IMG/VR virus record: IMGVR_UViG_3300043444_000198
Span: 1 to 28,942 of that record
From: a virus
Reading direction: 5' to 3' (one strand)
DNA length: 28,942 nucleotides
Shown: positions 128-24,098 of the stretch, piece by piece
Layout of the letters: each line of letters starts with the position of its first letter
How positions within the stretch are numbered: the stretch's first letter is position 1
Notes under the pieces: model-generated
Told to the model about the DNA's origin: nothing
Databases searched by the model: none
The model's input: the letters and a program-made list of their open reading frames with translations, nothing else
Translations under genes and position numbers: made by a program

Positions 128-263
128 CGAACAAATAGCCGAATCCTATGCTGACATAGTACTGATATCTGTTCATATCTATATTGTCAACAACAACAGT
201 CATGTTTCCGAGCGAGGTGTTCTTGACGATAGTCTTGCCCTTGTATTCATCTTTTATTTTCAT
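9..263 (-). CDS. Conserved-looking phage protein with basic C-terminus, 84 aa
   Basis: An 84-aa protein that begins MKIKDEYKGK at 263. It overlaps the end of the sigma-like gene by 17 nt, and its stop overlaps the start of the next gene (ATGGACCCACTCAGTAA) across the circular join. The N-terminal two thirds look like a small beta-rich domain ending in YQYYVSIGFGYLFE. The tail has a KPKRKRR cluster that could bind nucleic acid. Its place directly before the packaging genes suggests a DNA-packaging or virion-assembly role, but this is inference from position. I do not recognise a named family. Confidence 0.8.
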   Translation of the reverse strand: MKIKDEYKGKTIVKNTSLGNMTVVVDNIDMNRYQYYVSIGFGYLFEKETTTAPIRYEGIEADEQTEAPKVTKPKRKRRTNGPTQ

Positions 264-780
264 TGTGTATGGTTTTTAGTGTGCTTTTTATGTCAGAGAT
301 TAGGTAGTGTGCTGACGTAACTGGGATATTGAAATACTGCGCCATTGATCGTGCTGTTGTGAGCCCTTTGTCGAAGTATGCCTTTGCGACTGCAATCTTG
401 ACATTGTCTGTCAGCCCATCTCGATAGATGTCCACCGATGACTTCCATCCCTGGTACTGCTGCTCGATTGCGATTTTGTAGTTTAGGTCCTCCTCATCAT
501 CGTATCTGTCCGGCACTGCTGTCTCATTAGCCAGGATTCTCTCATCCTTGAAGCTGTTGACGTTCTTCCAGATGACTTGCCGCTTGATTGAGTTGAGGAT
601 ATAGCTCTTGACCTTGCCGACATCCTCGGTGTTGTCATTGATTTCGAGGCAGTGAAGGTATGCGTTGGAGATGACCGTGTCGATAGTGAGTTTCGGATTG
701 TACTTGGAGCAGAAGTACCTGGTGTATCGGTACAGCTCCTCATAGTGGGACGATATGTAGCGGTCAAGAGTTGCCTTCAT
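247..780 (-). CDS. Divergent sigma-70/ECF-like RNA polymerase sigma factor
   Basis: A 177-aa protein; the start MKATLDRYIS at 780 is preferred over an upstream in-frame ATG at 852 because that extension lies inside the preceding gene. Residues 5-75 (HYEELYRYTRYFC ... ISNAYLHCLE ... IKRQVIW) resemble a sigma region 2 helical bundle. Residues 140-172 (LTTARSMAQYFNIPVTSAHYLISDIKSTL) look like a region 4 helix-turn-helix. An acidic linker (DRYDDEED) joins them. Small phage sigma-like proteins usually redirect host RNA polymerase to middle or late promoters. The gene lies at the early/late boundary, directly before the terminase and virion genes, which fits that role. An alternative is a non-sigma HTH transcription factor or small terminase-like protein. 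The assignment is by motif and context only. Confidence 0.5.
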   Translation of the reverse strand: MKATLDRYISSHYEELYRYTRYFCSKYNPKLTIDTVISNAYLHCLEINDNTEDVGKVKSYILNSIKRQVIWKNVNSFKDERILANETAVPDRYDDEEDLNYKIAIEQQYQGWKSSVDIYRDGLTDNVKIAVAKAYFDKGLTTARSMAQYFNIPVTSAHYLISDIKSTLKTIHNENKR

Positions 781-7445: not shown

Positions 7446-7466
7446 AAAATGTTGTTTTGTGGGGTG

Positions 7467-7478
7467 TAAATATACGCA
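7467..7478 (-). promoter_or_regulatory. Early promoter core for primase-helicase gene
   Basis: On the minus strand TGCGTATATTTA, the same core as at the ERF promoter, 23 nt before the primase start codon (counted from the TGCGTATATT core). The TATATTTA part matches a Bacteroidetes -7 element in 7 of 8 positions. No good TTTG -33 element is visible; instead GTGACGAT repeats lie directly upstream, so a bound protein may replace or block it. Confidence 0.6.
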
Positions 7479-7480
7479 TT

Positions 7481-7595
7481 TCGTGACGATGTGTGGGCGA
7501 TTATGACGATTCGTGACGCAAATTAAAAGCTATCGTCACGCTTCTATCCTTTACTGGTATTGACTTTGAGCGAAAGCGTGACGATGTGACGATAG
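7481..7595. other. Candidate replication origin: GTGACGAT repeat cluster
   Basis: This intergenic stretch holds repeats of GTGACGAT or close variants: 7483-7490, 7503-7510 (ATGACGAT), 7513-7519 (GTGACGC), 7531-7540 (inverted), 7578-7585 and 7586-7593. The copies at 7532-7543 and 7574-7585 form a perfect 12-bp inverted repeat (ATCGTCACGCTT / AAGCGTGACGAT). T-rich DNA follows at 7596-7622. Repeats next to an AT-rich patch, flanked by a DnaA-like gene and a primase-helicase gene, are what a phage origin looks like. The repeats could also be operators of the primase promoter. Bases 7596-7658 show no ORF. Confidence 0.5.
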
Positions 7596-7658
7596 AAAAA
7601 CTTTTTTTCAATTGGTTTTTTTGGTGCCTATCTCCTACTCGGTATAATAGAGCGATTG

Positions 7659-9816: not shown

Positions 9817-9828
9817 CGAATATACGCA
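9817..9828 (-). promoter_or_regulatory. Leading early promoter core
   Basis: On the minus strand TGCGTATATTCG, in which TATATTCG matches TAnnTTTG in 7 of 8 positions. The TGCGTATATT core ends 23 nt before the first early start codon, the same spacing as at the primase gene. It is probably the main promoter for early transcription. Confidence 0.6.
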
Positions 9829-9845: not shown

Positions 9846-9926
9846 CACTTTTCTAAACATTTTTTTTATTTTTTTTCACATTTATTTTTTGAACGTAAGG
9901 CTTTACCCTTATTTTGTAACATAACG
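9846..9926. other. AT-rich non-coding tract
   Basis: No ORF. A run of T-rich DNA (9859-9890 is almost only T and A, with long T tracts) lies between the operator-like palindrome and the tandem repeats. It may be bent or easily melted DNA serving an origin or a promoter. It ends with an imperfect palindrome GTAAGGCTTTAC (9895-9906). Confidence 0.5.
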
Positions 9927-10022
9927 TACCCTATAAGGTACAAAACACCACTTTAAAGTGCGTTTTAATACCCGTTAAGGTGTAAAAATTCAACTATAAA
10001 GTCGGTTTATGTCCGATTAGGT
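9927..10022. repeat. 42-bp tandem repeat carrying alternating short palindromes
   Basis: Two full copies (9927-9968 and 9969-10010) and part of a third (from 10011) of a 42-bp unit. Each unit has a 12-bp palindrome of type ACCCnnTAAGGT (9928-9939, 9970-9981, 10011-10022 as GTCCGATTAGGT) and a 10-bp palindrome of type ACTwTAAAGT (9950-9959, 9993-10002). Centres are 21, 21, 22 and 19 bp apart, about two helical turns, so the sites face the same side of the DNA. This looks like an operator array or iteron-type origin. Confidence 0.75.
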
Positions 10023-10036
10023 ATAGTATATTCAAC

Positions 10037-10060
10037 AAAAAAGGGAGCCCGAAAGCTCCC
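10037..10060 (-). terminator. Terminator at end of late transcript
   Basis: On the minus strand GGGAGC-TTTCGG-GCTCCC followed by TTTTTT: a perfect 6-bp GC-rich stem and a U run. It lies 33 nt after the metallophosphoesterase stop and closes the late operon just before the repeat array and early promoter, so it keeps late transcription out of the early region. Confidence 0.88.
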
Positions 10061-10092
10061 CTAAAACAACGTATTATGAATACGGCACTAAA

Positions 10093-19463: not shown

Positions 19464-21370
19464 AGTACTGAATTTTTCATGATTTTGTTGACCTTGTTCT
19501 GTGTGGCTGTTATCTCGGTCTCAGATACCACAGCGGTGACAGTGATGTTCTGACTTGACTCCATAGATTGAGGAGCTCCAGCGTTGTTGGCTGCGTTGCC
19601 TTGACCGAATAGGTTACCAGGTACGAATGAAGGAACGGCTGAGTTGCCTACATTGGCAGAACCTCCACCTCCACCTCCAGCACTTGGAGTCTGAACCGAT
19701 GCACCACCACCACCCATGAATTTGGATATTGATGATGCCACGATTGTACCGATTGAAGTTGCTGCACGAATCTTGGCACCGGCAGCAGCAGCTGAAGCGA
19801 GTGCGAGACCACCATCAGGCAATGCTTTCCACAATGGGTTGGCATAGTATCCAGATATCTCCTTCTGTGTGTTGACTATGATTTCACCGATGGCGAGTGC
19901 TTTGTCAACCAAGAAGAGTGCGTTGGCGAGCTTCTTGTTCTCACCAGCCAATTCAGTGAGTCCAGCGATGAGGCCTTTTGCTGCTCCGAGTTTAGCTTGA
20001 GCGAGCTCTTCCTCTGCTACGAGGACAGCCGCATTGTATTTCTGCTGTTCCTCAAATGAAGCCATGTTCCCCTCACCTTGAATCTGAAGAGATTTGGTTC
20101 GGGTGTCGACCAATGTAGATACGATGCTTCTCGCTGTCTTGGTAGCAAGCATCTCATTGTTTTCAGAATCTTCCTTTCTGATGTTATTTATCTCAAGAGA
20201 TTGAGCTTTCTCAAGTGCTGTGATATCAAGATTATATTTTTTAGCCTCTGCAATCAGTGCTGCATATTTGGCTTTTGTATCATCGATTTCAACTTGAGTT
20301 TGCGTCTTGGTTGAGTCAGTCAGTAGTTTGTTGGCTGCTGTGATTTCTTTTTGAATCGCTGCTCTTCCTTCCTTGTATGCTTTAGCTGCTGCCTCTCTCT
20401 TGGCTTTTGCTTCTTCTGCTGCCTTGTCAGCCGCCGCTTTTGCTTCAGCTTGGTCAGCAATCTCAATCAGCTTGCGCTCTTTCGAACCATCCTTGATGAT
20501 TTTGTTCTCCTCCTCGATGCGCTTACGTAATGCCTTTCGTCTCTCGATGCTGTCTTTGTCAGACAAGCCCTTGAGTTCTGCGTATTCACTGCGAGCATCT
20601 GCCAATCTTTTCTTGGCTGCATCGCTGATGGATTTGGATTTGTCAAGCTCGAGCTTTGTGGTATCCTTACCAGCTGCTTTGGCTTTTGCAATCTCGATAT
20701 CGTACTGGTCTGAGATGGCAGCAGTGCGCTTCTCTGATGACTTGAATGCCTTCTCATTGGCTTTCTCCATCGTGCGAGCGTTCTCCTCTGCTGCATAGCT
20801 TGTGAGCCCGAGCCAATCGGTCAGCTCCTTGAATGCATCGATGAGCAAGTTGATGGGAGTCATCAAGAAGTCAATGGCTTTTTGTAGCACACCAATCTTA
20901 TTCAACCATACACCAATGGCAACCACAATGGCTGTGATTACAGCAGAGAGCAAGAAGATGGGGTTGGTTAGAATCTGCGCTCCGAGCTTAACGAATGCGC
21001 CACCCATAGTGGTAACAGTACTCGTGAGCCCTTTCATTGATTTGCTGATGTCCTGAGCATTCAATCCGCCAAGTGACTTGCTGAATACCTTCGCTTTTTC
21101 AGATGCCTCTTCGAAGTCGAGTGACATCAATGAGTCACGGATGCCACCAAATGAGTTGCTGATTTGTTCGAATTTCGAACCAGATGCGAACACATTCACA
21201 GCATCATTTGCATCCTTAATCCTATCCGCTACCTCACCAGCTCTGGCAGCGAGAGCCGCCATTTGTTCCGGGTCAGATGCTTCAGCAATGGCTGCCTTGA
21301 GTGATCGTAGCTCTGCCTTTAGTGACTGAACACCCGAGAGCTTGAGAGGTATTTCTATTTCATTAGCCAT
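19460..21370 (-). CDS. Tape measure protein
   Basis: A 636-aa protein with the usual tape measure layout: N-terminal helices rich in Ala and Leu (residues 10-60), a hydrophobic segment (133-156, ILTNPIFLLSAVITAIVVAIGVWL), a long Lys/Glu/Ala-rich coiled-coil region (about 190-480) and a Gly/Ser/Ala-rich C-terminal region (SISKFMGGGGAS ... AGGGGGGSAN). At about 0.15 nm per residue this predicts a tail of near 95 nm (family rule, not measured). It supports a siphovirus with a moderately short tail. It overlaps its neighbours by 4 and 8 nt. Confidence 0.9.
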   Translation of the reverse strand: MANEIEIPLKLSGVQSLKAELRSLKAAIAEASDPEQMAALAARAGEVADRIKDANDAVNVFASGSKFEQISNSFGGIRDSLMSLDFEEASEKAKVFSKSLGGLNAQDISKSMKGLTSTVTTMGGAFVKLGAQILTNPIFLLSAVITAIVVAIGVWLNKIGVLQKAIDFLMTPINLLIDAFKELTDWLGLTSYAAEENARTMEKANEKAFKSSEKRTAAISDQYDIEIAKAKAAGKDTTKLELDKSKSISDAAKKRLADARSEYAELKGLSDKDSIERRKALRKRIEEENKIIKDGSKERKLIEIADQAEAKAAADKAAEEAKAKREAAAKAYKEGRAAIQKEITAANKLLTDSTKTQTQVEIDDTKAKYAALIAEAKKYNLDITALEKAQSLEINNIRKEDSENNEMLATKTARSIVSTLVDTRTKSLQIQGEGNMASFEEQQKYNAAVLVAEEELAQAKLGAAKGLIAGLTELAGENKKLANALFLVDKALAIGEIIVNTQKEISGYYANPLWKALPDGGLALASAAAAGAKIRAATSIGTIVASSISKFMGGGGASVQTPSAGGGGGGSANVGNSAVPSFVPGNLFGQGNAANNAGAPQSMESSQNITVTAVVSETEITATQNKVNKIMKNSVL

Positions 21371-24098
21371 ATATTCTGACTTCGATTGGTGAGTTGTTTA
21401 AAAAATCATCTGACAGCTCATATCCTATCTCTCCGCTCATTTCGAATCCATTCGCCAATGTGCTGACAGATATGTTGCCATCGCTGTTGATATATGCTGT
21501 GACGTTTGCACGCCTATCTACATTGCCAATTATGACAAAAGTGTTTAGAGCATCGAATGGGTTGGTCGGTGTGCCGAGATATTCTCCAGCTCCGACTCGA
21601 GTCCAGGTGATTTCTCCGATGTTGTCAGCCAATACCACTGCGCTCGGTACATCAGTTCCGCTCTGCGTTAGTAGTGCCACATAAGTCTGCGCCACAGCAG
21701 CCGCTCCATTGATTCGAGGTGTGATGATTCCGTCCTCCTGAAGCGTCTTGTTGTCACCGATGACCAAGCCACGCAGACCATCACCGATGTTGTTGCCGGT
21801 ACCACGCACGATGACATCGATGCCAGAGAGGTTGACATTCGCCTCTGTTGATCGTGTTTCGAGATTTGACTCACGAGATGCAGCAGTGATGGGTGGTGAG
21901 ACGGGTGTGCCTGGATTCGTTACGAATGGAGCGAGCTCAATCTCGGTGTCGATGCTGATGAGTTCCACCTTGGTTGGCACCTCTGCGTTGGCATCATAGT
22001 CGATGACCTTGTTGATGTTCCACCATGAGTTGTCGATGCGAATCTTGTCATTGAGCTTGAGCGTCTGAATGTCTGCCTCGGTCAAATGGAAGTAAGCCAC
22101 CAACATCTTGCCCACATTTATTTGGTTGACTGTTCTGCGCCAGTACAGATTGTACAGATTGTTGGCAGTCAGTGTGCTCGGTGTATAATAGTAGTAATCG
22201 CACGTTGCGAAGTTGATGTCGAAGGTCGGTGTGAGCGCATCATCGAAGTGACCGAGCATCGGGTAAACAGTGAGACCGAGCTCACCAGTTGTGCCGTATT
22301 CAATCAAATCCCATGAGCCGCACGATTGCTCGCCACCATCATACAAGATGCGGATGTTGGTCTTTGGTGCTTCACCATTCAAGGATGGCACATAGGCATC
22401 GAATGAAGTGGCAACCACTGGAGTCGGTGAGAAGATGAGCTCCTTGGTGTCGGTATCCTTCACATACTCGTTGTCAAAGGTGTACTCGAGCTGACCATAA
22501 ATCTCATCGGTCATTTGAGTGTACACCACATTCGGAGAGTCATTGTCTGCCTTGTAGGTGAGCTTGAGCTTCTTGCTCGTTAGGTCTGGAAGGAAGATGA
22601 GATTCTGCTCTCTGTCCTTCATCAGCTTCTGCGACCAATCCTTCTCTGCTCCGCTGTCATAGTATTCGTCACGATGGCGAAGGATGAGCTTGTTGGGTTG
22701 GTCTGTGTCCGTATCAGCGTACAGATTGTACATCTGGAAGATAGACTTCACATAGTCGCTCTGCTTGATTTTGAGCGGCACATATTGGTTGATGTCCAGG
22801 ATGCCACCAATCACTTGGATGTTGGCTGTTGGAAGGATGCGCACTCGAAGGCTGTTGACCTTGAATACCGAGTATACTGGGTCGGGTGCTGGTGTGTATG
22901 GGAAGGTTGTATTTGTGAACCACGCAGTGAATTGCTGCTGCACTCCGATTTGAATCTTGAGCTCATCGGCTGCAAGAATCTCTTGAGAGCCAGATGCGTT
23001 CTGCATTGCAATCAAGCCTCCCGTTTTTATGCCTGATGCTGCTGGTGTGAAGTTATGGATGCCTGGAGCAAGTGTAAATTGCGTGCCTATGATTTGAGTA
23101 TTTGCAACATTCGATACCTGGTCTTGATATCCTTCCACGCTCACAGCTATTCTTGGTCTTGCAGTGTATGCGTTGTACATATTGTACACATCCACGGTAT
23201 TGGTGTTGTCAACATAGAACTCATAGTTGACTTCATACTCGATGGTGTATCCCTCTCCAGCTGCCGAGCTCGTGGTGATTGGTATGGTGTAGACTCCAGT
23301 TGTTGGATTGAATGAGCCTTGCACGTCAGTGATTTCAGTCCATCCGGTGACGTCATCATAAGAGCCGAATGAGTTGGTGAGAGTCTGCTGCTCTATGCCA
23401 TTGATGGTTGCCTCCACCAAATAATCAGCGGTGTCTAATGTGTTGCTGTCCCCATTGTATGGGATGAGCAGCTTGTCGAATCGAGCCGCAGCCAAGTCAC
23501 TCCACTCGTACTGAAAGCCAGCAGTGGCGAAGATGCGGTCAAGGTATGTCTTAGCGTAGATGGCTGGCTTCATCTGGCGCACGTTGTAGATGTTGTCGGT
23601 GTCGTATGGCAGCACATACTTGAAGCCGTCAGTGATCGTGTTGTTGAATGTGTTCACGATGTCAGCAGCCGAAAAGGTATGGTTGAGGTCAGTGAAGTCC
23701 AGGTCAGTCAGGTCCTTGTTGGCGATGGCTGTGAAGAACTCCACCCTCGTGTCCTTGATGAGGACCTCATACTCGACAGCTTGCTCATAGGCATCTGTTT
23801 GCTGATTCTTGTTGACCGATAGCAACTGAAGCAGCGCATCCTCCATGATGGGAACGTTGTTCTGAATCACACTGCACTTTGTCAGTGCATTGATGTCGAA
23901 TGTACCAGCGGAGATATTAACATCATAGTAGTGATTGAGCAGCTCGTGGTTGTTCTTGCTGCCAACCAAAGTGATGGTCTTGGAGAACGCTCCGCTGCGC
24001 TTGGTGAGGTCACGAATGTCCCCGACTGCGAAGTTCAAAGGAAAGACAGTTCCCTCCTTCACATCGAGGAATCCATTCTCAAGTTGTATTCTAACCAT
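21363..24098 (-). CDS. Large distal tail/baseplate protein
   Basis: A 911-aa beta-rich protein beginning MVRIQLENGFLDVKEGTVFPLNF. The N-terminal GTVFPLNFAVGDIRDLTKRSGAFSKTITLVGSKNN is a marker of tail proteins that follow the tape measure gene in Bacteroidetes phages. The middle has tail-hub-like segments (RRTVNQINVGKMLVAYFHLTEADIQTLKLNDKIRI near 710-745). The C-terminal 150 residues (SNLETRSTEANVNLSGIDVIVRG ...) look like a fibre or collagen-like beta domain. It probably combines tail hub and baseplate roles. It overlaps the tape measure by 8 nt, and its start codon lies inside the end of the 482-aa gene. Confidence 0.78.
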   Translation of the reverse strand: MVRIQLENGFLDVKEGTVFPLNFAVGDIRDLTKRSGAFSKTITLVGSKNNHELLNHYYDVNISAGTFDINALTKCSVIQNNVPIMEDALLQLLSVNKNQQTDAYEQAVEYEVLIKDTRVEFFTAIANKDLTDLDFTDLNHTFSAADIVNTFNNTITDGFKYVLPYDTDNIYNVRQMKPAIYAKTYLDRIFATAGFQYEWSDLAAARFDKLLIPYNGDSNTLDTADYLVEATINGIEQQTLTNSFGSYDDVTGWTEITDVQGSFNPTTGVYTIPITTSSAAGEGYTIEYEVNYEFYVDNTNTVDVYNMYNAYTARPRIAVSVEGYQDQVSNVANTQIIGTQFTLAPGIHNFTPAASGIKTGGLIAMQNASGSQEILAADELKIQIGVQQQFTAWFTNTTFPYTPAPDPVYSVFKVNSLRVRILPTANIQVIGGILDINQYVPLKIKQSDYVKSIFQMYNLYADTDTDQPNKLILRHRDEYYDSGAEKDWSQKLMKDREQNLIFLPDLTSKKLKLTYKADNDSPNVVYTQMTDEIYGQLEYTFDNEYVKDTDTKELIFSPTPVVATSFDAYVPSLNGEAPKTNIRILYDGGEQSCGSWDLIEYGTTGELGLTVYPMLGHFDDALTPTFDINFATCDYYYYTPSTLTANNLYNLYWRRTVNQINVGKMLVAYFHLTEADIQTLKLNDKIRIDNSWWNINKVIDYDANAEVPTKVELISIDTEIELAPFVTNPGTPVSPPITAASRESNLETRSTEANVNLSGIDVIVRGTGNNIGDGLRGLVIGDNKTLQEDGIITPRINGAAAVAQTYVALLTQSGTDVPSAVVLADNIGEITWTRVGAGEYLGTPTNPFDALNTFVIIGNVDRRANVTAYINSDGNISVSTLANGFEMSGEIGYELSDDFLNNSPIEVRIYG

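Follow-up and report, generated by a model that had tools for sequence, protein, structure and literature searches.

What is a row of phased palindromes doing between the early and the late genes of a phage? The window, by which we mean the whole stretch of DNA analysed here, is a 28.9-kb contig of an uncultured phage whose replication genes are of the Bacteroidota type and whose cultured relatives are distant only. The initial annotation had placed the palindromes at the early/late boundary, and this was borne out: they lie between the terminator of the late operon and the early leader. On the early side, TATATTCG is probably the -7 element of the early promoter, following the Bacteroidota consensus, and TTTG-N19-TATCTTTG stands at this position in some relatives. 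The gap that holds the array, from the late terminator to the early promoter, is probably not transcribed. The array is made up of three HipB-type operators in a 41-42-bp ladder, one box of the PDC-S01 type and two short palindromes of the ACTTTAAAGT type (Table 1).

Table 1. Coordinates of the array, its borders and the endonuclease fusions found in other phage loci (positions in the window unless a locus is named).
Feature	Position	Strand	Remarks
Candidate -7 element of the early promoter, TATATTCG	9817..9824	-	Based on sequence and relatives
PDC-S01-type box, TTACCCTTATTTTGTAACAT	9903..9922	+	Single copy; best of 57,846 positions, 22.8 bits, next 11.0
HipB-operator-like box 1, GTACCCTATAAGGTAC	9926..9941	+	Second-best distinct site of the window, 15.4 bits; first long palindrome of the initial annotation
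Interleaved short palindrome, CACTTTAAAGTG	9949..9960		Perfect, 12 bp
HipB-operator-like box 2, ATACCCGTTAAGGTGT	9968..9983	+	Top site of the window, 17.6 bits; 42 bp from box 1
Interleaved short palindrome, ACTATAAAGT	9993..10002		Imperfect; 43 bp from the first short palindrome
HipB-operator-like box 3, ATGTCCGATTAGGTAT	10009..10024	+	Fourth-best distinct site, 11.8 bits; 41 bp from box 2
Intrinsic terminator of the late operon	10041..10062	-	Borders the array
GIY-YIG + HipB-like HTH fusion, L123	~134-673	-	
GIY-YIG + HipB-like HTH fusion, L192			
GIY-YIG + HipB-like HTH fusion, L261	10471-11013		
GIY-YIG + HipB-like HTH fusion, L287	4377-4862		
GIY-YIG + HipB-like HTH fusion, L305	1214-1699		

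Five palindromes, alternately long and short, had been described inside a 42-bp repeat. Two of them are clear and two are weaker, but the fifth (10009-10024) is degenerate and hardly palindromic. Box 1 pairs at 7/8 positions, box 2 is a weaker palindrome, and the distances from centre to centre are about 21, 21, 22 and 19 bp. Palindromes with at least 6/8 pairs numbered 4 against 0.89 expected (25/2000 shuffles). The 42-bp periodicity is above chance, with a lag identity of 0.50 that was reached in 2/2000 dinucleotide shuffles, but Tandem Repeats Finder gave no call on the array, indicating that the array has diverged. The asymmetric box at 9903-9922, just beyond 9927-10022, is part of the same array and was missed at first. 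As a possible RNA element, for instance a mimic of a type III TA antitoxin RNA, the array gave no Rfam match above the threshold. Boxes occur in both orientations at one locus, and the box pairs of freshwater phages show, by inspection, arm changes without covariation. The reading as phased protein-binding sites with conserved spacing was right in kind, although the sites are predicted from sequence.

Which proteins could bind the long sites? We scanned the window with a matrix built from chromosomal HipB operators of Bacteroidota HipBST-type toxin-antitoxin (TA) loci, which may not be those of the window's own host. Among 57,854 positions on both strands, the sites at 9968, 9926 and 10009, which carry the TACCCGnnnnGGTA box sequence, ranked 1, 3 and 6, corresponding to the first, second and fourth distinct sites. 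All three lie on the plus strand at distances of 42 and 41 bp, and the bacterial operators are 41 bp apart. In a search of 247 Bacteroidota genomes allowing up to 3 mismatches, 17 carried ACCTnnTCGGGTA in a 41-bp ladder, perfect cases included (20 sites among the matches listed); a reversed-pattern control matched a few times. In 12 of the 15 bacterial loci examined, the 41-bp ladder of ACCnnTCGGGTA lay directly before the gene of a small HTH protein, always from a single HipB-like family, and this gene was followed, where readable and checked, by those of HipS-like (Couple_hipA) and HipT-like (HipA_C) proteins. At several bacterial loci the boxes sit at about -26, -67 and -108 relative to the hipB start. 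Known hipBST operators have this layout: in Legionella HipBST, three evenly spaced operators, the first of them 24 nt upstream of hipB, have been shown to be bound (PMC10653801). The HipB matrix is partly circular because a pattern taken from the phages served to retrieve the bacterial hip loci; the position of the ladder before hipB is not circular.

The window shares with the HipBST/HipBA operators the palindromic boxes, their sequence and their even spacing. It differs in that its sites are mixed with other operator types and the phage has no hipB, hipS or hipT downstream; the window ladder is therefore an operator copy and not a hip locus. The long sites resemble operators of host HipB and not sites of a phage regulator. 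We know of no work that establishes HipBST as an anti-phage system.

The single box ahead of the ladder agrees almost perfectly with the tandem box found in front of PDC-S01 genes, which encode AAA_14-DUF4143 ATPases and are PADLOC defence candidates. When 395 Bacteroidota genomes were scanned for the 33-bp pair, it turned up in one place, with three copies directly before an ATPase gene; the product is an AAA_14-DUF4143 protein that matches PADLOC candidate PDC-S01 (E 7e-195). This is the one chromosome with the exact phage-type pair; a further match, L461, has the appearance of a phage contig that was binned into a MAG. PDC-S01 homologues collected by protein search alone have 2-4 tandem boxes before the start codon, and the best repeat lag was 32-33 bp in 48 of 55 nonredundant upstream regions vs 17% in shuffles. 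The box sequence varies by subfamily, and one common type, TTACCCTTnnTTTGTTACAA, is the reverse complement of the phage box. When the pattern-found locus was left out, so that the training set came from protein homology alone, the 9903 box still ranked first (21.6 vs 11.8 bits). With this matrix the top match fell inside the array in 13/13 array-bearing genomes (15.4-27.4 bits), whereas six array-less relatives reached just 10.0-14.4 bits and had no strong site. At thresholds of 14 and 15 bits, 8/11 HipB sites and 19/20 PDC sites of array-bearing genomes lay inside the array; of the two matrices, that for HipB is weaker and gave 8 sites in shuffled genomes. The phages have in common with the PDC-S01 upstream repeats the TTACCCTTnnTTTGTTACAA box and, in many of them, the 33-bp period; they differ in having no ATPase gene. 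The window holds one copy and so lacks the 32-33-bp tandem spacing, but many relatives carry exact 33-bp pairs.

The C-terminal part of PDC-S01 has a conserved D..ExK, which fits a PD-(D/E)XK nuclease. A nuclease of this type has also been stated for PDC-S01, which is reported to rank fourth in frequency among the defences of all prokaryotes and described as being without experimental validation (PMC12988326). In the GPRQSGK-type DUF4143 subfamily (bacterial loci L364-L393), the 33-bp repeats were not seen; a palindrome of about 35 bp often lies just before the start codon. Weak PDC-S01-like boxes occur upstream of a phosphoesterase gene in the array-less relatives L316/L317 (G004, position 21239) and L319 (G005, position 24006), possibly as a decayed or alternative element. 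The arrays of L028, L070 and L017 contain a further 33-bp tandem pair, seen by eye, ACTTTwwAGyTsAAAAAACTkGAC, which is possibly the operator of a further PDC-S01 subtype.

Given the resemblance to both operator types, the long sites are very probably host-type HipB operators and the 9903 box a host-type PDC-S01 operator. The array would then be a modular set taken over from the operators by which host TA and candidate-defence systems regulate themselves, or else convergent on them, with the two short palindromes outside this assignment. Across phages, the modules outside the two types are ACTTTAAAGT, TTGACCGATAATT, TTAAGYG and GTATAnAAAACG. Pairs of TTGACCGATAATT and of TTAAGYG were looked for in 133 and 136 bacterial genomes and not found. 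Single boxes as real sites in bacterial genomes were dismissed, since the 29 matches were scattered and chance-like. Searches of cultured phages and plasmids did not find the modules.

We compared the arrays of related and distant phages, of which about 140 are distinct. Their modules are reshuffled, sometimes inverted, and placed at different loci without cognate toxin or ATPase genes. In a comparison of 80 loci with the neighbouring gene, phages whose neighbouring protein is about 88-94% identical have very different module combinations, drawn from a limited set, in the same gap. Within the gap the ACC..GGGT and AGGGTAAA modules are over 200 times as dense as in the DNA outside it, and there is one array locus per genome. 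The direct-repeat module TTTGTNACAAARTMAGGGTAAAA forms pairs exactly 33 bp apart; of 111 upstream AGGGTA neighbours within 60 bp, 88 are at this distance. Among 142 nonredundant arrays, 67 show the lag of 33 bp, other module pairs are at 20-22 bp and ACCTnnTCGGGTA is at 41 bp. Almost no other lag was found, and shuffles gave 0.4 in total; the lags come close to 2, 3 and 4 helical turns. In phages with a portal protein of just about 20% identity the modules recur as well, and there they can be inverted, sit between tRNA genes or occupy other loci. Five distant array-bearing genomes have a protein of about 261 aa in common.

Conservation in relatives had been proposed as a check, and it gave a divided answer: the box spacing is kept, but the modules are reshuffled and some full-length relatives have no array. 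Most of the more distant relatives carry no modules, and in the full-length array-less relatives no copy of the array was found elsewhere in the genome. This distribution bears on the suggestion that the array is an iteron origin, a partition site or an early/late switch, which turned out to be wrong or unsupported. If a phage protein, for instance the DnaA-C-like one, bound the array as a replication origin or as a site for partition or packaging, this would agree with the single locus per genome and with the DnaA-C-like gene that is often nearby. However, the array is missing in full-length relatives with a homologous primase, and the GC skew, checked for origin use, had no consistent turn at the array. 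The DnaA-C protein was rejected as array ligand, since it occurs in array-bearing and array-less phages alike. About six CGTCAC(G) boxes, direct and inverted, lie at 7446-7658 between the DnaA-C-like and primase genes, and array-less relatives that share this primase have the cluster too. By its sequence and position, this cluster is a good candidate for the origin, better than the array. An origin at the array was rejected on its absence in relatives, the inconsistent skew and the separate CGTCAC cluster, and we regard the whole group of origin, partition and packaging readings as highly improbable.

The location of the array in most phages, directly upstream of the early promoter, raises another explanation. 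Host HipB and PDC-S01 regulators bound there could let the phage sense the host state or tune early transcription, and box pairs spaced near whole helical turns would suit such a role. But the promoter is kept in array-less relatives, the boxes are invertible and in other phages lie inside tRNA clusters or between genes, and the host-type orientation mostly points away from the early genes. This regulatory use of host proteins is unlikely. We also discarded the boxes as a phage promoter for the downstream gene, because they are inverted relative to the genes in L097, L104, L136, L150 and L280.

The high mosaicism around the array and the recombination genes of these phages would fit a neutral origin, in which the boxes are promoter pieces left after the loss of captured TA or defence genes and kept as short homologies for Erf-like recombination. 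However, the box sequence and spacing are kept at about 20% portal identity while the linkers vary, and no leftover coding sequence was seen; we hold this reading to be very doubtful. At the 33-bp box, a small gene is flanked in L152 (4906, reverse strand) and missing in L142 (4134), which suggests gain or loss of cassettes at the repeats.

Across 3.1 Mb of phage loci we saw neither HipT nor PDC-S01 genes, nor any convincing HipS, and the boxes are therefore most simply read as sites for host proteins. The HipB-like sequence in the phage loci is found only inside GIY-YIG fusions, at five loci (Table 1). Such a fusion is possibly a homing element that targets operator arrays, and the arrays themselves might be landing sites or remains of selfish elements that home to the boxes by means of such GIY-YIG endonucleases with a HipB-like HTH. 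The fusions are inserted between HipB boxes in L123 and L192 and beside the 33-bp pair in L261, L287 and L305. Nonetheless, of several hundred loci only 5 have them, and the 33-bp boxes match operators of PDC-S01. Nor is it expected that several unrelated box families would gather in a target site. A selfish-element target is quite unlikely.

We return to binding by host proteins. The best explanation, somewhat more probable than its opposite, is that the array works as a DNA decoy, an operator sponge, against host TA and defence autorepressors. On phage DNA, which rises in copy number as it replicates, these sites would hold HipB-HipS-HipT complexes and PDC-S01 proteins on DNA, inactive or harmless, and toxin activation or nuclease attack would be blunted. 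The rapid reshuffling would make sense if each module were directed against a single host subtype. A decoy function would also account for arrays that combine unrelated operator types, are variable, can lie at any place and in either orientation, and keep to a single locus. Titration of the autorepressor could also raise toxin-antitoxin expression. The broader proposal, that many Bacteroidota phages carry a multivalent decoy locus of shuffled TA and PDC-S01 operator cassettes that neutralises these systems by titration, stands in our estimate at about even.

Our search of the literature on phage palindrome arrays and decoy operators found nothing that matches. The nearest precedent, at the RNA level, is the pseudo-ToxI of phage PhiTE, in which the phage copies the repeats of a host abortive-infection system as an RNA antitoxin mimic against one system (PMC3475682). 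Repeat number and content vary in both cases; the arrays, in contrast, look like DNA operators of several systems and occur in either orientation. Arrays of operators for phage repressors, with multiple sites in non-coding DNA, are represented by the stoperators of mycobacteriophages and the CIRs of phiC31. The arrays described here differ from these, since they are confined to one locus, comprise several families and match host rather than phage repressors.

If the decoy reading is true, the arrays would represent a DNA-based class of counter-defence, with DNA operator mimicry standing beside RNA mimicry and protein inhibitors. That phages gather PDC-S01 and TA operators in arrays resembling decoys independently points to a conflict of PDC-S01 with phages. 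The arrays also give a handle on the PDC-S01 mechanism, namely DNA-repeat binding by an ATPase with a nuclease-like domain. We predict that the remaining array modules point to further host systems. If the reading holds, it would point to a natural role of PDC-S01 and HipBST-like systems in restricting phages.
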